Source: a bacterium (lineage in GTDB: Bacteria; Arandabacterota; Arandabacteria; Arandabacterales; Arandabacteraceae). From it: a DNA stretch of 64,000 nucleotides. Both the position numbers and the translations under genes were made by a program. The DNA is taken from assembly GCA_029933125.1 (NCBI GenBank), contig JAOZOU010000001.1, positions 62,001 through 126,000 on the forward strand. The letters are read 5' to 3'. Below the pieces are notes generated by a model, which worked only from the letters and a program-made list of their open reading frames with translations, was not told the DNA's origin and did not search any database. Below, piece after piece: positions 17,695 to 33,221 of this stretch (within the stretch, counting starts at the first letter, position 1; every line of letters begins with the position of its first letter).

Positions 17695-18855
17695 CTAAGT
17701 CAAAGTGGAAAGGGCAAACTTTGACTTATCAGACTCATCTTGCCTGACGAGTGATGAGCTCATTGCAAGAAATTCTTTTGCTATCATGGGATCAAACTCG
17801 CGTCCTATGCCTTCCCGTATAAGCAGCGTTGCCTGTTCAAAGGAATACGCTTTACGATAGGGCCTATCAGAAGTGAGTGCATCAAAGAAATCAACGACCG
17901 AAACAATGCGAGCCAGGAAAGGAATCTCCTCATCACGCAAACCATCAGGATAACCAGTGCCATCGAAACGTTCATGATGGCTTCTAACAATACTTCTTGC
18001 ACTTTGGAGGAAGTCAACGCGAGCAATGATTCGCTCACCGATTATAGGGTGCTCCTTTATGACTTCGAATTCACTATCACTGAGCTTTCCAGGCTTGTTA
18101 AGAATTTTCCCACTTATCCCAATCTTGCCAATATCGTGGAGCGTTGCTCCATACTGAAGGGTGCGCATCTCGCTGCCTGAGACCCCAAAGCGTTCAGCAA
18201 GTGCTATTGCGAATTGGGTAACCCTTTTGGAATGACCCCGAGTGTAGGGATCTTTAACCTCGATTGCAGCAGCCAGAGCTTCAACTGTTGAAAAGTAGTT
18301 TTTCTCAAGCCGTTTCACGAGCTGGGAGTTCTCGACTGCTGCTGCTGTAACGCTTGCGACAATGGAGATAATTGCCAGAATATTGCCTGAAATTTGTCTG
18401 TTCTCCCTCAGGTACATTGTCACAAGCCCGATCTGCCTGGTTCCCGAAACGAGGGGAACTGCAACAAGGGCTCTGAAATTTTCACGCTTTACATATGTTG
18501 GAAAGGTATAGCCCGTTGCTGAAGCAATGTCATCTATCACAAGTGGATCGCCCTTGGTGAGAGCATTCTGAGCAAAACTTGAAGGTGTCAGGATTCTACT
18601 TCCGTAGATGATCTCCCTTTTGAAAACATTCCCTCGCCTCACAAGAAGAAGCTCCTCAGTGACACCAACAAGCTTGAGTGAGAGCCCGTCTATCCTTATC
18701 AATGAGCCAAGGGCTTCGGCTAAGTGCTCAAGCAGAGATCCGACATCGAGACTTGAAAGTATTCCGCGGGTGTCTCCAAGAAGATCAAGCAAATCGGGTG
18801 ACCCTTCACCCACACTGCCTCCGGCTCTGGCCTCAAGATGTGTGCATCCCTCCAT
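17695..18855 (-). CDS. GAF-HD-GYP domain protein (probable c-di-GMP phosphodiesterase)
   Basis: 386 residues. The GAF domain occupies roughly residues 25-170 and HD-GYP roughly 180-370. Catalytic motifs are complete: GHSKRV, LHDIGKIG, KEHP, SHHERFDGTGYP, VVDFFDAL. HD-GYP proteins hydrolyse c-di-GMP to pGpG or GMP. It is the last gene of a five-gene signalling operon, 9 bp after the CheY-like regulator. It has no receiver of its own, so the stand-alone receiver next door may control it; that is inference. Confidence 0.92.
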   Translation of the reverse strand: MEGCTHLEARAGGSVGEGSPDLLDLLGDTRGILSSLDVGSLLEHLAEALGSLIRIDGLSLKLVGVTEELLLVRRGNVFKREIIYGSRILTPSSFAQNALTKGDPLVIDDIASATGYTFPTYVKRENFRALVAVPLVSGTRQIGLVTMYLRENRQISGNILAIISIVASVTAAAVENSQLVKRLEKNYFSTVEALAAAIEVKDPYTRGHSKRVTQFAIALAERFGVSGSEMRTLQYGATLHDIGKIGISGKILNKPGKLSDSEFEVIKEHPIIGERIIARVDFLQSARSIVRSHHERFDGTGYPDGLRDEEIPFLARIVSVVDFFDALTSDRPYRKAYSFEQATLLIREGIGREFDPMIAKEFLAMSSSLVRQDESDKSKFALSTLT

Positions 18856-18864
18856 GGCAGGACC

Positions 18865-19236
18865 TTACCTTTTGAGCATCCCCTCGACCCTTTCGATGAG
18901 TCTGCCTGGGCTGAAGGGTTTGACAACATAGTCATCTGCACCCGCTTGACTTCCTAACTTTCTATCAGCTTCTCTACCCTTGGCAGTGAGAAGGATTATT
19001 GGTATGCCTTTTGTCTGAGGATCAGATTTGAGCCTTTTACAGGCCTCATAACCATCCATCTTGGGCAGCATTATGTCGAGAACGATTACGTCAGGTTTCT
19101 CGGCTTTGGCTTTGGCAATTGCTTCCTCACCATTGCCTGCTGTTATGACCTCATAGCCCTCAGCTCCAAAGCTGAAGTTGAGGATATGCTGGATGTATTC
19201 CTCATCATCAACAACGAGGACCTTTGCGCGCGCCAT
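18865..19236 (-). CDS. Single-domain response regulator (CheY-like receiver)
   Basis: 123 residues, receiver only. Acidic pair DDEE, phospho-acceptor Asp in IVLDIMLPKMDGYE, Thr in LLTAKG and Lys in VVKPFSPG are all present. The AGGAGG Shine-Dalgarno overlaps the stop codon of the upstream kinase, so the pair is translationally coupled. The likely phosphate source is the intact kinase just upstream. Confidence 0.95.
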   Translation of the reverse strand: MARAKVLVVDDEEYIQHILNFSFGAEGYEVITAGNGEEAIAKAKAEKPDVIVLDIMLPKMDGYEACKRLKSDPQTKGIPIILLTAKGREADRKLGSQAGADDYVVKPFSPGRLIERVEGMLKR

Positions 19237-19241
19237 TTGAT

Positions 19242-21809
19242 CTACCTCCTTACAAGTGAATTGACCACATGCTGCTCTTGGCGCATGCCGGCTTTAAGGA
19301 TATTGATGAATTTATCGACGACTTGGGGATCAAACTGACTACCACTACACCGCCTCAACTCCTCCACAGCCTCCTCCATACTCATCGCCCGCCTGTAAGG
19401 TCGCTCACTCACCATAGAACTATATGCATCAACCACCGCCAATACCCGCGCCCCCAACGGTATCTCCTCCCCCCTCAATCCACCCGGATAACCCCCACCA
19501 TCATACCGCTCATGATGATGCAATATTATCTCCTTCACCTGCTCCAAAAACTCTATCGGCCCAACTATGTCTACACCAGCCTCCGGATGCCGCTTCACAC
19601 TCTCATATTCCACCACCCCCAATCCCCCACGCTTCCGCAATATCTCCTCCCCCACTCGTACCATCCCAACATCATATATCTGCGATACATACTGCAGCAT
19701 CCGTACCTCTTCCTCCCCCAACCCCATCGCCCTACCCAATTCAACAACTAAACGACCAACCATCTCCGACTTCCTAGCATGAGCAAGCCGCCTCGATTCT
19801 ATGAGGCACTTGAGCGAGTTGGTGATCGCTGCAAACTCACTCTTGACACTTTCGTACTGTCTTACCTTTCCAAGGACACCCGATATCCGATCGGCAAGTA
19901 TCTGAAGAATATCCGCATCGTTTTTGGTGAAGGGGGTGAGAGTTATCCGATTGGTCACGTTGACCACTCCGATTACCCTATCTCCTTGTTTAAGAGGAAC
20001 ACTAACCAGGGATTTTGTCTCATACTGAGGCCTTCGGGAGGGTGCGAATCTTTCATCGGCTTCAATGTCATGTACGAGAACAGGCCTGCCAGTCTCAGCC
20101 ACCCAGCCAGCTATACCGTTTCCCACCTTTACACGAGCATTCCTAATGACTGCCTCATCGAGTCCCATCGCTGCACTCACATATAGCTCCCTATTTTCCT
20201 CGTTGAGAAGCATAAGAGAGGCAGTCTTGGCGCCCATTATTTCAGCAATCATGTCGACGATGAGTTCAGAGACACGCCTTTCGCATGTGGTTGGTTCATC
20301 TGGACCGGTTTCAGGCCTGGCAGGGGCAACAGCCTTGCGCTTGGGCAGACTGACGGTGAAACGTGTCCCTTTTCCACTTTCACTTTCAACCCATATCTTG
20401 CCGTCATGCCATTCGACTATGTTTCTCACAATAGCAAGCCCCAGCCCAGCGCCCCCGTACTTGCGAGTTGCAGAGGAGTCAACCTGGTAGAATTCGTCAA
20501 AGATGCGATCGATGCTCTCTGGTGGAATCCCGATGCCCGTATCTTCAACCGATATCTCGACAGTTGAGTCACGATCGGCGAGGGTAATCTCTACTCTTCC
20601 ACCTTCTGGAGTGAACTTGATTGCATTCCCTGCAAGATTGACGAGAAGTTGCTTTATCATACTGCCATCAACGAAAGCCTTGACATGATCGTCGGGGAGC
20701 GATGTCTCAATCGAAATGGATTTCTTCTTAGCTGTTGGTGTAAGAACTTGTTTTACATCCTCTATGATCTTGCAGAGATCCCTATCAGTCTTCTTGATAT
20801 CAACCTTGCCACTTTCAAGTTTCGAAAGATCGAGCATATCTTCAACGATCTTTGTCAATCGCTGAGCCTCTTCCTGGATTATCTTGAGAAACTCAATTCG
20901 TACCTGGCGTGGAGTCTCACCCCAGTCTCTGGCAAGGGTTTCAGCGTAAGCCATAATTGAGGTGAGGGGAGTCCGAAGCTCATGTGAAACTGCCGCAACA
21001 AAATTGGTCTTCATCTCATTAAGCTCCTTAAGACGCTTTGTCATCTCACGGAGCTGCGCAACGTTCTCCTCAAGGCGCGAATAGAGCCTTGCGTTCTCGA
21101 TTGCAGTTACTGCCTGATTCGCAAAAATCTCAAGAGTCTCAATCGTATCGAGGGTCGGTATCTTACGATCAACGGGATCGTCAACAGAGAGATAGCCAAC
21201 GAGCCGCTGATCTCGGGTCCAGAGGGGTACAAAAAGGCTATCCATGGGATGCCATTCGTCTTCGCCCCTCTCACCAAGGTCTGGGACATAGACCTCATCC
21301 TCACGATCATTCCAGAAACCCACTTTGTGGCTTATGAAATAGGACCGAGAAATGCGAAATTCATCCTTCATCCACGTTTTGAAAGTCTCAAGAGGTATGC
21401 GACGGGAGCTTAACTTCTCTATCGCCTCTTGGCTCAAACCAGCAAAAGCTCTTGCCACAAATGTGCCACTTTCCTCGTCAAGTATTCTGAGAAGTGCCAT
21501 GCGGAAACCAAGGCTCTCACTCACTGCACGAGCAATTTCGTTAAGCAGAGACTCGAGTTCAAGAGTGGCATTTATCCTGTTTGAGATCTCAAGGATTTTG
21601 GCTAGATTGTCACTTCTGTGGCGCTCCCTTTCTTCACTTTCACGAGCTCGCTTTGCCTGTAATTCAGCCCATTTGCTTGCCTTCGCCTGCCTGCGGAAGG
21701 CAACAATCGTAGAAATTCCAAGTAAAACGATAGCACTCAGGGCGCCAATAACAATCACTGCCGAACCAACCTTATCGGCATAGACAGCAGCCACAAGATC
21801 AGGTATCAC
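19242..21809 (-). CDS. GAF-histidine kinase-GAF-HD-GYP sensor protein with degenerate HD-GYP
   Basis: 855 residues. One N-terminal membrane segment (about 15-37), GAF (about 70-240), HisKA with an intact H-box VSHELRTPLT, HATPase_c with intact boxes (NLAGNAIKFT, EDTGIGIP, GGAGLGLAIV), a second GAF (about 520-660) and a C-terminal HD-GYP-like domain (about 670-845). In that domain HDxGK reads YDVGM and the upstream GHS histidine is missing, while KRHP, HHHERYDGGGYP and VVDAYSS remain. It may bind rather than cleave c-di-GMP. GTG start overlaps the upstream stop (GTGA). The HD-GYP part is encoded by a perfect repeat shared with the next gene. Confidence 0.92.
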   Translation of the reverse strand: MIPDLVAAVYADKVGSAVIVIGALSAIVLLGISTIVAFRRQAKASKWAELQAKRARESEERERHRSDNLAKILEISNRINATLELESLLNEIARAVSESLGFRMALLRILDEESGTFVARAFAGLSQEAIEKLSSRRIPLETFKTWMKDEFRISRSYFISHKVGFWNDREDEVYVPDLGERGEDEWHPMDSLFVPLWTRDQRLVGYLSVDDPVDRKIPTLDTIETLEIFANQAVTAIENARLYSRLEENVAQLREMTKRLKELNEMKTNFVAAVSHELRTPLTSIMAYAETLARDWGETPRQVRIEFLKIIQEEAQRLTKIVEDMLDLSKLESGKVDIKKTDRDLCKIIEDVKQVLTPTAKKKSISIETSLPDDHVKAFVDGSMIKQLLVNLAGNAIKFTPEGGRVEITLADRDSTVEISVEDTGIGIPPESIDRIFDEFYQVDSSATRKYGGAGLGLAIVRNIVEWHDGKIWVESESGKGTRFTVSLPKRKAVAPARPETGPDEPTTCERRVSELIVDMIAEIMGAKTASLMLLNEENRELYVSAAMGLDEAVIRNARVKVGNGIAGWVAETGRPVLVHDIEADERFAPSRRPQYETKSLVSVPLKQGDRVIGVVNVTNRITLTPFTKNDADILQILADRISGVLGKVRQYESVKSEFAAITNSLKCLIESRRLAHARKSEMVGRLVVELGRAMGLGEEEVRMLQYVSQIYDVGMVRVGEEILRKRGGLGVVEYESVKRHPEAGVDIVGPIEFLEQVKEIILHHHERYDGGGYPGGLRGEEIPLGARVLAVVDAYSSMVSERPYRRAMSMEEAVEELRRCSGSQFDPQVVDKFINILKAGMRQEQHVVNSLVRR
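19300..19755 (-). repeat. 456-bp perfect direct repeat, copy 1 (HD-GYP module)
   Basis: Identical base for base to 21849-22304 (offset 2549). I checked all lines of both copies. It encodes most of the HD-GYP-like domain of the 855-residue kinase. From about 19328 to 19755 codon use is alien to the flanks: only two C-ending codons, Ile always ATA, Leu almost always TTG, Gly mainly GGG. The 28 bp at the 3' (gene) end look native. Confidence 0.97.
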
Positions 21810-24637
21810 GTCTTTGCCCCCTTCGCTTGAGGAGCTTCCGCTTTGAGAATATTGATGAATTTATCGACGACTTGGGGATCAAACTGACTACCACTACACC
21901 GCCTCAACTCCTCCACAGCCTCCTCCATACTCATCGCCCGCCTGTAAGGTCGCTCACTCACCATAGAACTATATGCATCAACCACCGCCAATACCCGCGC
22001 CCCCAACGGTATCTCCTCCCCCCTCAATCCACCCGGATAACCCCCACCATCATACCGCTCATGATGATGCAATATTATCTCCTTCACCTGCTCCAAAAAC
22101 TCTATCGGCCCAACTATGTCTACACCAGCCTCCGGATGCCGCTTCACACTCTCATATTCCACCACCCCCAATCCCCCACGCTTCCGCAATATCTCCTCCC
22201 CCACTCGTACCATCCCAACATCATATATCTGCGATACATACTGCAGCATCCGTACCTCTTCCTCCCCCAACCCCATCGCCCTACCCAATTCAACAACTAA
22301 ACGAGTCTGTGCCTCATTCTTTGGTGAATGAGCCCTCGCCTCAAGAACTGCCTTCATTGCCACCATGGCACTCACAAATTGATCCCTCGCGCTCTCATAG
22401 CTTGTTGCATGCTCGAGCGCCACGCCTATGCGCTCTGCCAGCGCCATAAGCAGACAAACATCATTGTCCTCAAAGAAATCGTCGATCGCGTTCTTGTTCG
22501 AAACCGTAAGAACACCCAGCACCAACCCTTTAAGCCTTATGGGAACCGATATGCACGGTATTCTCTCAAAGGGCAGTAACTCATCTATACCTATTTCGGC
22601 AGCCTCACCTTCCGAATTGAGAACAATGGGAGAGCCCTTATCGTAAACCTTCCCGGTGAGTCCTTCCCCTTTTCTGATCTCAAGGTTCGATCCTTCGGGG
22701 AACTTGTAGTTTACGCTTGCGCCAAGCCGTAGATTGCCGCTTACCGAATCCTCAAGAAAGAGTAGACACCGTTCAACCTGCATCACCTTAGAGATCATGT
22801 CAGTTGTCAGCTCGAGCATGCGCTTGAGTTCAGGTCGTGCTGTCATAATCTCAAGCAAGAGATCTGAAGGACAAATCTTTCGCTGCTCTTTACCAAATAT
22901 GAGCACAAAAGCCCAGGAGGATGGATCATGGGTCTCGGCCCAGATGCGTCCGCCATGCCTGAAGACGATATTCTTGGCAACCTGGAGTGTGAGCCCGAGA
23001 GGACCTGTTTCGGCTGGCATGACGTCATCAGTAGCTATCGCATGGAATGCCGACTCCAAACCTACGCTTGAACCAGCTGGAGAGAAGGCAATGCGCGTTC
23101 TGTGGAAGTTCTCGTCCTCGCCAATTTCTATCTTTATCTGTGTTGCCCTTCTTGCAAGGCTGATTGCTGCTTCAAGAAGATTGCGATAGAGCAGGAAAAC
23201 CATATCCCTGTCGAGATAGGCTTGAGAAAGATCCTCTGGCGACTCAACGACAATCTCTGTCTCTTTATCGATACAGCATGGATCAAGAACTGCGCAGACA
23301 TCCCTCAATACCTCGGCAATGCTGACTTCCTCAACTCTTATGTCGCCTTCACCGAACTCCATGCGTGCCAGGTCTATCACGCCGCTTACTGTGCTCAGCA
23401 GCCTCCCGGCCTCCTCAACAACAGCACCGAGAAACTTCTTCTTGAGCTTAAAGGTGGTGTCGTCAAGGCGATTGAGCACCGTCTCAGAATAGGTCTTTAT
23501 CGCATCAAGAGGCACACGCATCTGACTTGTTACAGCTGAGATGAATTCAGCCTTGAGTCTATCAGCACCAACCAGTTCACGATGAGCTACCTCAAGCTCC
23601 TCAAGTTTGCGCTTGAGCTCTCTCCTCAGACGAGCCTGCTTTATCGCGGATGCTGCATGGTTTGCAAGAATAGTAAGCAGCATGAGATCGTGATCATCGA
23701 ATCGCTTTGGGCGTGTGTCACCAACATAGAGCACACCAAAGACTTCATCCTCTGCTATGAGGGGGACTGCCATTATTGATCTCAACTTACCAATTCGAAC
23801 AGCCGAGGATTCGCGTGATCTCGCATCATTGAGAGTGTCACTTATGACGAGGGGCTTACCCGTCGAAAGCACCCATTCGGTCATTCCACCCTTGCGTACA
23901 CGCCATCTCAATTTCCTTTTGAACTCACTGCTTATCCCCTTGGTCACACTTGCCAGAAGATCCTTCTCGATAAAAATTGCAACGCTAGCTGATTCTGAGC
24001 CAACGAGCCGCCTCGCATCCTCTGCAAGCATGTCCATGATCCCACCAGGCTCTGCCTCCTGTGCCGTGGCTCTACTTGCCTCATAGAGACGAAGGAGATT
24101 CTGACTGGTTGCGACATGCTCAGTCTCTATCTTCTCAAGCTCAGATCGCATTCTTGCTTCGACTGCACTTGACCGTCTAAGAAGAGATAAATAGTAAGCA
24201 CTTGTTGCCAGGATCGCACTGCTTGTGGCTACCATTATCCAGAATGTGAACCAGCCACTCTCGGAAACAGCAAAAACTCTCGAACCGAGATAGGCGCCAG
24301 CGAAAATAGCAACAAGCATGCTGCTGAGCTTGCTCAGGCTTGGCTTGGTAAGCGCTGTAACTGTCACAAGACCGAACCACAGGATTCCGGGGATGGAGCC
24401 GATTTGCCACCGACCCGCAGCGAAACTTATCAATGCTATCCCTATTATCCTTAAGCTATCAATGATGGGACTTTTGACGCTGCCGAACATGAATCTTTCG
24501 CCGAGGACAACAATTCCAATGGCAAGTGCTATCGCCACATCAAAGGGAGAGGAATGAACGAAGGCAGGGACACCTATGGATACTGCAGCAGCCAGAGGCA
24601 AGGCAAGTCGCAATGTGTCCACGTTGACCTTTGACAT
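21806..24637 (-). CDS. Membrane GAF-pseudokinase-GAF-HD-GYP protein
   Basis: About 943 residues from the ATG at 24637 (AAAGAG Shine-Dalgarno); a TTG at 24664 is an alternative. The N-terminus has several hydrophobic segments to about residue 155, then GAF (about 190-340). A HisKA-like helix follows in which the H-box reads VTSQMRVPLD, so Ser replaces the phospho-acceptor His. The ATPase region has lost the N-box Asn and the DxGxG box. A second GAF (about 620-760) and a degenerate HD-GYP identical to that of the next gene complete it. It is probably a pseudokinase acting as receptor or scaffold. It overlaps the next gene by 4 bp. Confidence 0.9.
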   Translation of the reverse strand: MSKVNVDTLRLALPLAAAVSIGVPAFVHSSPFDVAIALAIGIVVLGERFMFGSVKSPIIDSLRIIGIALISFAAGRWQIGSIPGILWFGLVTVTALTKPSLSKLSSMLVAIFAGAYLGSRVFAVSESGWFTFWIMVATSSAILATSAYYLSLLRRSSAVEARMRSELEKIETEHVATSQNLLRLYEASRATAQEAEPGGIMDMLAEDARRLVGSESASVAIFIEKDLLASVTKGISSEFKRKLRWRVRKGGMTEWVLSTGKPLVISDTLNDARSRESSAVRIGKLRSIMAVPLIAEDEVFGVLYVGDTRPKRFDDHDLMLLTILANHAASAIKQARLRRELKRKLEELEVAHRELVGADRLKAEFISAVTSQMRVPLDAIKTYSETVLNRLDDTTFKLKKKFLGAVVEEAGRLLSTVSGVIDLARMEFGEGDIRVEEVSIAEVLRDVCAVLDPCCIDKETEIVVESPEDLSQAYLDRDMVFLLYRNLLEAAISLARRATQIKIEIGEDENFHRTRIAFSPAGSSVGLESAFHAIATDDVMPAETGPLGLTLQVAKNIVFRHGGRIWAETHDPSSWAFVLIFGKEQRKICPSDLLLEIMTARPELKRMLELTTDMISKVMQVERCLLFLEDSVSGNLRLGASVNYKFPEGSNLEIRKGEGLTGKVYDKGSPIVLNSEGEAAEIGIDELLPFERIPCISVPIRLKGLVLGVLTVSNKNAIDDFFEDNDVCLLMALAERIGVALEHATSYESARDQFVSAMVAMKAVLEARAHSPKNEAQTRLVVELGRAMGLGEEEVRMLQYVSQIYDVGMVRVGEEILRKRGGLGVVEYESVKRHPEAGVDIVGPIEFLEQVKEIILHHHERYDGGGYPGGLRGEEIPLGARVLAVVDAYSSMVSERPYRRAMSMEEAVEELRRCSGSQFDPQVVDKFINILKAEAPQAKGAKT
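21849..22304 (-). repeat. 456-bp perfect direct repeat, copy 2 (HD-GYP module)
   Basis: Second copy of the 19300-19755 sequence, in frame at the C-terminus of the pseudokinase. Sequence identity stops sharply at both ends: mismatches begin at 21848 and 22305. The region just 5' in the gene (ACT CAG... codons) looks native, whereas copy 1 continues with G-rich codons for about 30 bp, hinting that copy 1 was the donor. Confidence 0.97.
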
Positions 24638-24650
24638 GGCATCTCTTTCA

Positions 24651-25634
24651 TCAATCGTTCTCAATCCTTCCGACGGGCATGGTTTGCCCGTTCCTCCTCC
24701 TTTCCCTGACTACGACACTTCCATCAAGAGTCTTGCCATAGCGCTTAAGCTCTGAGGCGATATCACTTATCTTGGCTACATGATCAATCTTGCCATGCTT
24801 ATCAGTGACAACCGCTATGGTTATGGTTAGCAAGGGGAATCTGTCGACAATTCCCTTACGATTGATGACCTCAACATAGCCGCGCTCAAGATCCTCCTTG
24901 TCGAAGAGGTGAACGATACGCTCATCAAAAAGACTTACAATCTTTCTAGCAATGGGCTCAGAATTCTCAGGCGTCGTGACCACGACGAAATCATCCCCTC
25001 CGATATGCCCAACAAAGTCCTCACTCCCGCCGACCTCCCTTACGGCTTCGACTATTACTTCGGCGGTTAGCTTGATGGCTTCATCACCACGTCTATATCC
25101 GTAGTAGTCATTGAAAGCTTTGAAATGATCAATATCGGCATACATGAAGGCAAACTCAGATCCATTCGATAGCCTTCTTTCGATCTGACGTTCGATTGCA
25201 ATATTACCTGGAAGCCCTGTTAGGGGATTAGCTTGACGCTGGAGTTGGCTCCACTGGAGTACATTCCTTACTCTGAGCAGCAGCTCGCTTATGGCAAAGG
25301 GTTTGGCTATATAGTCATTGGCTCCACCTTCGAAGCCCTGAAGCTTGTCCTCGAGATTGGTCTTGGCTGTTACCATTATTATCGGAATGTGACTTGTTTG
25401 ATAGTTGCCCTTGAGTCGCTTGCAAACCTCATAGCCATCCATCTTTGGCATCATAAGATCGAGGAGGATGAGATCGGGAGGCGCCTTTTCGACAGCCTCT
25501 AATGCCTTCATTCCGTCCTCAACTGTCTCGACTGTATAGCCGGCCTTCTCAAGCTGGAACTTGACTATCTTACGGATGTGTTCCTCGTCATCTACAACCA
25601 GAATCCTCTGATTCAGGGCGAGGGGTCCTGACAC
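24651..25634 (-). CDS. Response regulator with GGDEF domain (diguanylate cyclase-like)
   Basis: Receiver (about residues 10-125: VVDDEEH, LLDLMMPKMDGYEV, VTAKT, IAKPF) followed by GGDEF (about 140-300). The active-site loop is GGDDF rather than GGDEF or GGEEF; Asp at the fourth position is unusual but conservative. The RxxD inhibitory site is absent. DHFKAFND is present. It starts at GTG 25634 with a GGGGAGGT Shine-Dalgarno; the in-frame extension to 25718 adds residues with no family match. First gene of the signalling operon and the only c-di-GMP synthase candidate beside five HD-GYP genes. Confidence 0.9.
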   Translation of the reverse strand: MSGPLALNQRILVVDDEEHIRKIVKFQLEKAGYTVETVEDGMKALEAVEKAPPDLILLDLMMPKMDGYEVCKRLKGNYQTSHIPIIMVTAKTNLEDKLQGFEGGANDYIAKPFAISELLLRVRNVLQWSQLQRQANPLTGLPGNIAIERQIERRLSNGSEFAFMYADIDHFKAFNDYYGYRRGDEAIKLTAEVIVEAVREVGGSEDFVGHIGGDDFVVVTTPENSEPIARKIVSLFDERIVHLFDKEDLERGYVEVINRKGIVDRFPLLTITIAVVTDKHGKIDHVAKISDIASELKRYGKTLDGSVVVRERRRNGQTMPVGRIEND

Positions 25635-25837
25635 ACTTACCTCCCCGGATAATCTTTCAAGGCAGCACCGTCGCAATAAGCGTGCCAGAGAGGGTGAAGT
25701 CATACGCGGTAGTATCAAGTTTACTTGTTTGTTCTGAAGTGGTTACAGGACCAACGCCGAGCAGCTGCATCAAATCAAAACAATCGAGGTATAACAGGGA
25801 CTGCAAAATGCAACATTGCTTGCATCGTGCAACGATC
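25635..25837 (-). other. Intergenic region between tsaD and the c-di-GMP operon
   Basis: 203 bp. It contains repeated TGCA-centred motifs (TTGCA/TGCAA, about 25800-25827) that can form a small hairpin just after tsaD. No convincing -35/-10 pair or T-tract terminator was found. Confidence 0.35.
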
Positions 25838-30338: not shown

Positions 30339-31634
30339 TTACGCAGCCTCAGCAATTCGGGGAGCAGCGAATCGCTCAAGACCGTCATGCTCATAGAGCT
30401 CGACGAGTCCCTTGACAACTTGAGGATCAAAATGAGTCCCCTGTGCCTCCTTCATTTTTGATATGGCCTGATCGACACTCATGGCATCTCTATATGGTCG
30501 GGGTGTCGTCATTGCAACAAATGCATCTGCAACTTTAAGAATCGCCGCCTCCTTGGGAATCTCATCGCCTCTAAGACCTCGGGGATAGCCTCGTCCATCA
30601 GGTCTTTCATGGTGTGCCCGCACGATTTCACCCACGCGTTCAAGAGCTCTAACACTCGTAACAATCGACGCCCCAACTTCGGCATGACTCCTCACCCTTG
30701 CCCATTCCTCCTTTGTAAGGCTTGCATTCTTCGAAAGAATTCGCCTCCCAACCGCAAGATAACCAATATCATGCAGCAATGCAGCATACTCGAGAGCTTG
30801 CATGCGCCATCCACTCAATCCTATTTTCCTGCCGATCTCAACAGCAAGTGCTGCGACCCTCTCAGATTCGCCCTCAAGGAAATCAAGACTTGAATCGACT
30901 GCGGTGGCAAGTGCAGCAACTGTGCCACGTTGAGCATCCTGCAATATCACATTCGTGCGCGAAGTCCTGGCGTAATAGATGAGCCAGAGAAAGAGGATGA
31001 AAACAAGAGCAACGGGCAAGTGGACATAGACATACGCCAGAATCAAACCCACTAAGGGAGCAGCAAATGATTGGGGTAGCATCCAAAGATAGTTTGCTTT
31101 CCATGTTCTTAGAGCTGATTGACCGAGTCTAAAGCTATTCCACAAGGTAACAAGGCCCGTGTTCGCAAAGAAGTAACTAAGATGACAGCCAACGAGGGCA
31201 AGAACAATCCCCATCCCACCACCTATCAGCACATGGGGCTGAGCTATGCTTGTGCCTCCAAGACTACGATAGAGAAAGCCTGCTATGGCGAGAGACGCTA
31301 CCATTTGAGAAACGTTGAAAAGCGTTCGCCAGAATCCAAATCTCAAGAAAACTGTGACAAGGATGGCCATCTCGACTGCTGCAAGCCATGCGGCCACACT
31401 GCCACCATAGGTTATGATTATTGCAAAATTGACAACAGCTGTGCCTGTCACAGCGCCCCCACCCCTCAGGGCAACAAACGTGACGACACCTGCTGTCATT
31501 AAGAGGAAAAACCAGAGCACGATACCACCGGCTTCGCTCCTTAAGAGGTGGCTAAGATCGCTAAAGCTGGAGGCCAGAAAGACAGCAGCTGAAATAGCAA
31601 GAGCTGAGGAAAAAACATAAGTTTTCTTGTTCAT
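30339..31634 (-). CDS. Membrane HD-GYP protein
   Basis: 431 residues. About seven N-terminal membrane helices (about 5-225) form a MASE-like sensor, followed by HD-GYP (about 240-420). HD is intact (LLHDIGYLAV, with Tyr replacing the Lys of HDxGK), RSHAE, AHHERPDGRGYP and VADAFVAM are present, and the upstream GHS motif reads GES. Probably a c-di-GMP phosphodiesterase with modified metal ligation. It is adjacent to holA without spacing. Confidence 0.9.
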   Translation of the reverse strand: MNKKTYVFSSALAISAAVFLASSFSDLSHLLRSEAGGIVLWFFLLMTAGVVTFVALRGGGAVTGTAVVNFAIIITYGGSVAAWLAAVEMAILVTVFLRFGFWRTLFNVSQMVASLAIAGFLYRSLGGTSIAQPHVLIGGGMGIVLALVGCHLSYFFANTGLVTLWNSFRLGQSALRTWKANYLWMLPQSFAAPLVGLILAYVYVHLPVALVFILFLWLIYYARTSRTNVILQDAQRGTVAALATAVDSSLDFLEGESERVAALAVEIGRKIGLSGWRMQALEYAALLHDIGYLAVGRRILSKNASLTKEEWARVRSHAEVGASIVTSVRALERVGEIVRAHHERPDGRGYPRGLRGDEIPKEAAILKVADAFVAMTTPRPYRDAMSVDQAISKMKEAQGTHFDPQVVKGLVELYEHDGLERFAAPRIAEAA

Positions 31635-31937: not shown

Positions 31938-33221
31938 TCACGAGCTATGAATTCCGAGCCAGCCCAATTTTCCATCATTGACCAGGCGAATGAGATACTC
32001 AACCACAACTGGATCAAATTCTGTGCCTGAGCCTCGTCGGAGCTCCTCTAAGACTACGTCTACGGTTTTACCCTTCCTGTAAGGACGGTCAGATATCATT
32101 GCATCAAAAGCATCAGCAACATTGAGAATCCGTGCACCAACTGGAATCTCATGCCCTCTGAGACCCTCAGGATAGCCCCTCCCGTCGGGCCGTTCATGAT
32201 GGTGCCTTACGATTTCAACTGACCTTCTCAGAAGTTCAACACGTGATACAACCTCAGCACTTATAGCAGGATGCATCCTAATCGCGTCACGCTCACGGGC
32301 ATCAAGAGGACCTGGCTTGGTTAGAATCTCAGCATCAACACTTAGCTTACCAATATCATGCAAAAGCGCTCCACCTTCGATCATTTCAACAGTAGATTCC
32401 GAAAATCCCATTTCTCTTGCAAGCATACGAGCCAATCGCGCTACTCTGCTTGAGTGATCGTAGGTATGTTTATCCCTCGCATCAACTGAAGATGCCAGAG
32501 CCTTGATAGCTTCCATCCTTGAGGTTCTTAGATCAAGACTCCTTCGCAGAGCATCACGCGTGAGCACAACGGGAAAGGCGAAAAGTATGAAACAAGATGA
32601 GGCAAGCTCGGTATTATAAGCAATTGCCATTATTGCACCGAGTAGGACTGTGAAGAGATGATGATGCAGATTCTTGCCAAAGTTGAGAAACCAGAATTCC
32701 CCAAAACCAAACTCTCTTCGGCTGCGCGCCAAGGTATCAACAGTGCTGACGATGATAAAGTATGCCAGAGCCGTGAGTAAGAGAGCAGGTACAGCTGCTG
32801 CCGACGTCATCCATCCTGTGGTTTGGGACTGAAGTGATCCAAAGAATAGGGATTCATGCTGACCAACAGGCTGAAATTGTCTCCACAACGAGATGGCAAC
32901 AAGACTACCAAGGGCATTGCGAGCTCCCACTGCGATAAAGCTGTGCCACCTCGCCCTGCAGGCAAGACATGCCGAAAGTCCCACAATCACCCCTAAATAG
33001 ACAACATTGAGATCCATCCTGAGCAAACATATCGATATGAGCAAGGCATCGAGAGGAAAGAGACGACCCCCCCAGGGGAGATTCAAAGTCAGCAAAGAAA
33101 GTAAAGCTGCAATAGCGACAAGGATGACAATATCACGAGACCCGAATCCCAGTCTCGAAAACAAGAGCCCCATTATGAGGCATGTACACACGAATGCTAC
33201 AATCCTTGAAACCCTCTTCAT
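31938..33221 (-). CDS. Membrane HD-GYP protein (probable c-di-GMP phosphodiesterase)
   Basis: 427 residues. Hydrophobic N-terminal half (about 1-220) with several helices, then HD-GYP (about 230-415) with all motifs intact: YDHSSRV, LLHDIGKLSV, MHPAIS, HHHERPDGRGYP, VADAFDAM. Start ATG overlaps the DUF523 stop by 4 bp with an AAGAGG Shine-Dalgarno. It resembles the 30339-31634 protein in architecture, suggesting an older tandem duplication with divergence. Confidence 0.92.
   Translation of the reverse strand: MKRVSRIVAFVCTCLIMGLLFSRLGFGSRDIVILVAIAALLSLLTLNLPWGGRLFPLDALLISICLLRMDLNVVYLGVIVGLSACLACRARWHSFIAVGARNALGSLVAISLWRQFQPVGQHESLFFGSLQSQTTGWMTSAAAVPALLLTALAYFIIVSTVDTLARSRREFGFGEFWFLNFGKNLHHHLFTVLLGAIMAIAYNTELASSCFILFAFPVVLTRDALRRSLDLRTSRMEAIKALASSVDARDKHTYDHSSRVARLARMLAREMGFSESTVEMIEGGALLHDIGKLSVDAEILTKPGPLDARERDAIRMHPAISAEVVSRVELLRRSVEIVRHHHERPDGRGYPEGLRGHEIPVGARILNVADAFDAMISDRPYRKGKTVDVVLEELRRGSGTEFDPVVVEYLIRLVNDGKLGWLGIHSS

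Follow-up and report, generated by a model that had tools for sequence, protein, structure and literature searches.

The window, that is, the whole stretch of 64,000 nucleotides that was analysed, carries two neighbouring, co-directional sensor genes, here called A and B, which end in the same HD-GYP module; the 3' end of A and the 5' end of B overlap by 4 bp. The features of the locus are as follows.

17695..18855, minus strand: separate GAF-HD-GYP protein with canonical HDIGK and normal composition, outside the repeat
18865..19236, minus strand: single-domain response regulator directly 3' of gene B; a response regulator follows B in the relative G003 too
19242..21809, minus strand: gene B, 855 aa, sensor kinase with the order GAF - HisKA (His present) - HATPase_c - GAF - HD-GYP
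19300..19755, minus strand: HD-GYP block, gene B copy, 100% identical to the A copy (19291-19755 at 99.6%)
19325..19745, minus strand: skewed core of the B copy, G 44%, C 10%, C3 ~2%, G3 56%, with edges just inside the repeat
20808..21014, minus strand: HisKA of gene B, SHELRTP intact
21806..24664, minus strand: gene A, 952 aa, membrane segment - GAF - degenerate HisKA - GAF - HD-GYP
21849..22304, minus strand: HD-GYP block, gene A copy, 100% identical to the B copy (21840-22304 at 99.6%)
21874..22294, minus strand: skewed core of the A copy, same composition
23354..23554, minus strand: degenerate HisKA of gene A, TSQMRVP
24651..25718, minus strand: response regulator-GGDEF gene directly 5' of A, kept in relatives

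Pfam searches matched HD_5 (HD-GYP) in both proteins and HATPase_c in B alone, with none detectable in A. The SHELRTP of B is replaced by TSQMRVP in A, showing that the phospho-acceptor histidine has been lost there (His to Gln), and with neither this residue nor a HATPase_c domain the product of gene A is predicted not to be an active histidine kinase. The A-B pair is also found in two same-family relatives from two further genera, G003 (JALGWN010000013.1) and G004 (JALGZP010000023.1), both of which possess full-length orthologues of B that are 68% identical. The gene order TsaD, RR-GGDEF, A, B, RR, GAF-HD-GYP, PriA is the same in G003, and the order in G004 and in the same-order relative G006 (JALGWA010000038.1) agrees for the portions lying within their contigs. 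A second tandem HD-GYP pair occurs elsewhere in the window (30339-31634 and 31938-33221, with HDIGY in one gene and HDIGK in the other); this pair is diverged and not strongly skewed in composition, and it bears no sign of conversion.

The module common to A and B matches the HD-GYP phosphodiesterase PmGH (PDB 4MCW) by sequence with an E value of 4e-27 and is thus the same domain, with the HHExxDGxGYP motif intact (HHERYDGGGYP; residues HHHERYDGGGYP). It differs from PmGH in the HD dyad, which reads IYDVGM in both copies, i.e., the dyad histidine is Tyr (leaving Y-D) and the following Lys is Met, making catalysis doubtful. Judged by these motifs, the module lacks the His-Asp dyad expected of a catalytic HD-GYP phosphodiesterase while retaining the HHExxDGxGYP signature. 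The synonymous and nonsynonymous differences in G003 and G004 (23/22 and 42/21, respectively) indicate purifying selection.

The preliminary description of this DNA had claimed a 456-bp identity between the two sensor genes, and direct comparison of both stretches bore this out: 19300-19755 and 21849-22304, both on the minus strand, are the same at every base. A near-perfect match extends over 465 bp (19291-19755 and 21840-22304, 99.57%, two mismatches), beyond which similarity drops abruptly to ~40-50%. Chance is excluded as the source of this identity. The strong divergence described for the remainder of the two proteins, together with the loss of the kinase histidine in one gene, likewise holds (GAF parts of A and B 41-43% identical; TSQMRVP in A). 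Besides the HD-GYP block, the 64-kb window contains no direct repeat of at least 30 bp, and a third copy of the block was not found in the genome, a 3.2-Mb metagenome-assembled genome (MAG). It had also been proposed that deletion between the repeats would fuse the pseudokinase to the shared tail. This does not follow, because A already ends in the same HD-GYP tail and no new fusion would arise; from the sequence, such a deletion would instead strip away the sensor-kinase part of B and leave A ending in the last ~16 residues of B. A product of such a deletion was not observed.

Comparison with sister genomes, which had been suggested as a check, revealed that the block and its flanks follow different lines of descent. 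The A and B blocks of one genome share 99.4% of nucleotides in the present genome, 87.5% in G003 and 83.4% in G004, whereas blocks from different genomes among these three are 68-73% identical, whichever combination of A and B is compared. Copies within a genome are thus closer to each other than to their orthologues. Just upstream, the GAF region behaves in the opposite way, with A and B 41-43% identical to each other, A to A 63-65% and B to B 65-70%. In the block tree the copies pair by genome, and approximately unbiased (AU) tests, in which the present A and B pair was left free since these copies are identical, rejected a single clade of A block copies (p 1.5e-4 for amino acids, 2e-40 for nucleotides) as well as a single clade of B block copies (p 3e-5 and 2e-5, respectively). 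In the GAF tree, A and B fall into separate lineages (support 100/99), and the A-specific junction and the gene order are common to all three genomes. Paralogues that are closer than orthologues, silent sites included, and flanks that follow gene descent are the marks of concerted evolution, and at the level of sequence they show recurrent gene conversion of one domain in three genera. The recent copying event that had been claimed can therefore be specified as gene conversion, but not as a single event, since it is recurrent.

The A genes of G006 and of the same-class relative G007 (Eisenbacteria, JAGLYR010000016.1) stop before the HD-GYP module and have no tail. In the simplest history, the module would have passed from B to A in the common ancestor of the family. 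The alternative that the tail of A is an ancestral module held in common with the A genes of Eisenbacteria was rejected by an AU test (p 2.6e-5), the A tails of the two groups not clustering together. Two Eisenbacteria loci (L088 and L089) have tandem A and B genes with an HD-GYP domain in both, in which orthologues are 67-70% identical versus 58-60% for neighbours, and these pairs show no sign of conversion. Adjacency and a shared domain alone are thus insufficient for conversion.

The block also has a G-rich, C-poor strand composition, which adds to what the preliminary description had read from the sequence. Within the block, third codon positions have base frequencies of G 0.56, T 0.27, A 0.14 and C 0.02, compared with 0.25/0.30/0.20/0.24 (G/T/A/C) in the rest of A and B; C3 is ~1-2% versus 24% and G3 56-57% versus 24-26% (Fisher p ~1e-12). 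The coding strand of the block has a GC skew of 0.65 and 37 G-runs/kb, with 0 G-runs on the opposite strand, while the skew is ~0.1 in the portions of A and B lying upstream. Leucine is encoded by TTG in 10 of 11 cases in the block versus 2 of 64 across the rest of B. The blocks of G003 and G004 are skewed in the same direction but more weakly (0.28-0.33 vs 0.09-0.13), with C3 depleted in their B copies (p 5e-4 in G003 and 5e-3 in G004, Fisher), and no significant keto bias was found in the single-copy B genes of G006 and G007 or in the Eisenbacteria pairs. Across the tree the skew thus accompanies conversion, and it peaks in the most nearly identical copies. Among polarised changes in the block, C>T dominates (12 vs 2 G>A). 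Each copy has one weak G-quadruplex motif and no more, and no Chi-like motif GCTGGTGG was found. Open frames run antisense across the block on the plus strand (19269-19751 and 21973-22449); few C on the coding strand mean few antisense stops and hence long antisense frames, and no gene is inferred from them.

The wider genome was sampled over 1.27 Mb (39% of its length), in which 2,203 non-overlapping coding windows of 130 codons were ranked by G3 minus C3. The top 7 of the 2,203 all lie within two repeats, the HD-GYP block and a direct repeat of 1,630 bp on contig C120 (67268-68897 = 74290-75919, 100% identical), which are also the sole long (>400 bp) near-identical coding repeats in the sample. 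The latter repeat is carried by two neighbouring Peptidase_C25 genes that are otherwise diverged and have T9SS-type tails. Its coding-strand GC skew of 0.88 is limited to the repeat, where there are 1-6 C per 100 bases; normal values resume at the repeat edges or slightly inside them. Across both skewed tracts G-runs amount to 37-48/kb on the coding strand and 0 on the other. The encoded protein is altered accordingly, with Ala, Pro, Thr and Gln down to 0-1% and Gly (24%) and Val (19%) raised. In the sister species G001, the C25 tract has a skew of 0.89 and yet is 76% identical to the present tract. A second C25 copy in G001, on another broken contig, agrees with the first at 113/113 positions and with the present tract at 97/113, where 113/113 reflects shared read k-mers rather than full-length identity, since contigs breaking at a repeat overlap by construction.

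Not all repeats are skewed: none of the older repeats (73-83% identity) is, repeats taken together are indistinguishable from the remaining windows (p = 0.25), and the property is limited to long near-identical ones. Codon composition was also computed for other HD-GYP genes of the genome, none of which is skewed, and no octamer is strongly common to the HD-GYP and C25 blocks beyond what composition explains. The AA dinucleotide is depleted in the skewed tracts of the window and the C25 locus (observed/expected 0.2-0.4). Next in the skew ranking are RCC1-repeat or sorting-tail fragments with G-rich, C-poor coding strands (L063:1-395, L161:1-675 and L067:15538-15987), dispersed copies that are 88% similar, two of them at contig starts. 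A 120-bp tandem repeat with a G-rich minus strand lies at the start of contig C176 (L171:1-287). The association of skew with conversion comprises two strongly skewed loci in 39% of the genome, together with the weaker RCC1 repeats.

These observations are very probably explained by recurrent conversion of the A and B tails combined with a strand-specific pressure on the converted tract that removes C and enriches G, and that is attributed to recombination. Several other explanations were weighed against this. A perfect repeat in a MAG could arise as an assembly artefact in which one consensus stands for two similar copies, and contigs of relatives do break inside the block (e.g., C318 of G001). 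However, each copy is flanked by unique sequence on a 612-kb contig, no N occurs in the window, and the 1,630-bp repeat on C120 is likewise resolved. Moreover, the copies in G003 and G004 are distinct and yet most like each other within each genome, and assembly would not generate the composition. An artefact is therefore very unlikely, although the 100% identity in the present genome could partly reflect assembly collapse. Repeated independent tandem duplication, with one block lost and the other re-duplicated in each lineage, would equally make the copies most alike within a genome, but the present genome, G003 and G004 agree in gene order and in the A-specific junction. Since the GAF and kinase parts of A are old and orthologous, re-duplication of whole genes is excluded and domain-sized replacement fits, leaving re-duplication highly improbable. 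The unusual codon use of the block, with leucine as TTG in most cases, might instead suggest import from a donor of odd base composition, followed by copying into both genes. In protein sequence, the block nevertheless most closely resembles its orthologues in G003 and G004, at the 75-76% amino acid identity that the gene would be expected to show, and the same direction of skew is found in these relatives and recurs in an unrelated gene and in a sister species. A phage origin was ruled out by blastn against 50,697 phage records, which returned no match, and import as a whole has a similarly slight probability to re-duplication.

Copying by reverse transcriptase, either DGR-like or as cDNA-mediated conversion, could produce both identity and strand bias, as strand-asymmetric change and local copying are typical of such systems. 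This is the most remote of the explanations considered, because RVT_1 is absent from the present genome (97% complete) and from G001, and the mutated base here is not A. A diversity-generating retroelement in particular was rejected, there being no RVT_1 in the genome and the copies being identical. Reverse transcriptases are encoded in two relatives (G003:C148:2319-2939 and G004:C93:1578-2258). Selection for recombination itself, with the skew maintained because G-runs promote it rather than as a by-product, is unlikely but deserves more weight, given that the density of G-runs on the coding strand (37-55/kb, with none on the other) equals or exceeds the 27/kb of the vls cassettes of Borrelia. 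Against it, no gain from switching is evident, as the copies are identical and encode conserved signalling parts, and the wholesale alteration of the C25 protein looks like drive rather than fine-tuning.

The preferred explanation, recurrent conversion with a strand-specific pressure, suggests the following course. A and B are old, diverged tandem paralogues with one C-terminal HD-GYP module in common, which homologous recombination has repeatedly copied between them. A conversion tract ends where homology ends, and thus the sensor and kinase parts diverge while the tail stays matched. Because a second repeat whose copies are kept identical is subject to the same pressure, the skew is attributed to recombination itself; the comparisons show that composition and recombination go together, and from this we infer that one causes the other. 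In the mechanism considered most likely, the G-rich coding strand would be exposed as single-stranded DNA in an R-loop, a replication gap or a G-run structure, and the exposed strand could favour loading of RecA and invasion of the neighbouring copy. DNA rich in TGG/TG supports the most stable RecA filaments (PMC3763553). If the G-rich allele that invades usually prevails, conversion and G-enrichment would reinforce each other, an idea put forward in part for the vls locus of Borrelia. Deamination in exposed DNA may contribute to C>T, but the net gain of G requires pyrimidine-to-G change as well, which rules out simple deamination as the sole cause. A defect in mismatch or uracil repair was also ruled out, since MutS1/MutS2 and UDG are present in the genome. 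For the proteins, the probable consequence is that the HD-GYP tails of the pseudokinase and the kinase remain alike; these tails may act as a common module for dimerisation or c-di-GMP sensing.

A broader and more doubtful proposal is that ectopic recombination between neighbouring paralogues acts as a strand-specific drive in this lineage, such that any repeatedly converted tract might be driven towards a coding strand of G and T nearly devoid of C, at the expense of normal codon use and of protein sequence where constraint is weak; the composition of vls would then be a general by-product rather than a special adaptation to immune evasion. For Borrelia it has been asked since 2013 whether extreme GC skew at recombining loci causes conversion, is an adaptation or arises as its by-product, and the comparison made here bears on this question, as two loci, several genera, and both converting and non-converting tandem pairs form a natural comparison. 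A practical consequence is that outliers in codon bias can mark conversion tracts instead of horizontal transfer.

Conversion between paralogues is already known in bacteria. Concerted evolution of prokaryotic paralogues by gene conversion is described as rare (PMC6053082), with long-lasting cases such as tuf, mtrA and others (PMC6053082, PMC5485169), and in the portion of PMC6053082 consulted HD-GYP or kinase genes were not found. The tuf and mtrA genes resemble A and B in their recurrent conversion and in having paralogues closer than orthologues, silent sites included, and mtrA also in being a tandem pair with domain shuffling; A and B differ from them in being homogenised in one domain of strongly diverged proteins and in their extreme strand composition. 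A domain-limited case in signalling genes with the strand signature of vls was not found described in the literature searched. The closest parallel for that composition is the vls gene-conversion locus of Borrelia, the Lyme disease bacterium, a surface-protein locus whose cassettes show a coding-strand GC skew of ~0.52 with 27 G-runs/kb confined to one strand, features that have been ascribed to selection for antigenic switching (PMC11499132, PMC3585125). Like vlsE and its silent cassettes, the tracts described here are converting repeats with a G-rich coding strand, codons foreign to the genome and almost no G-runs on the opposite strand, and their high skew (0.65 and 0.88, above the ~0.5 of vls) is confined to the recombining parts. 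In contrast to vls, there is no expression site with silent cassettes but exactly two identical copies, co-directional and both within full open genes on a long chromosomal-type contig; the genes encode signalling kinases and secreted peptidases, and the outcome is homogenisation rather than variation. The A/B locus is thus like vls in composition and is not a vls system.
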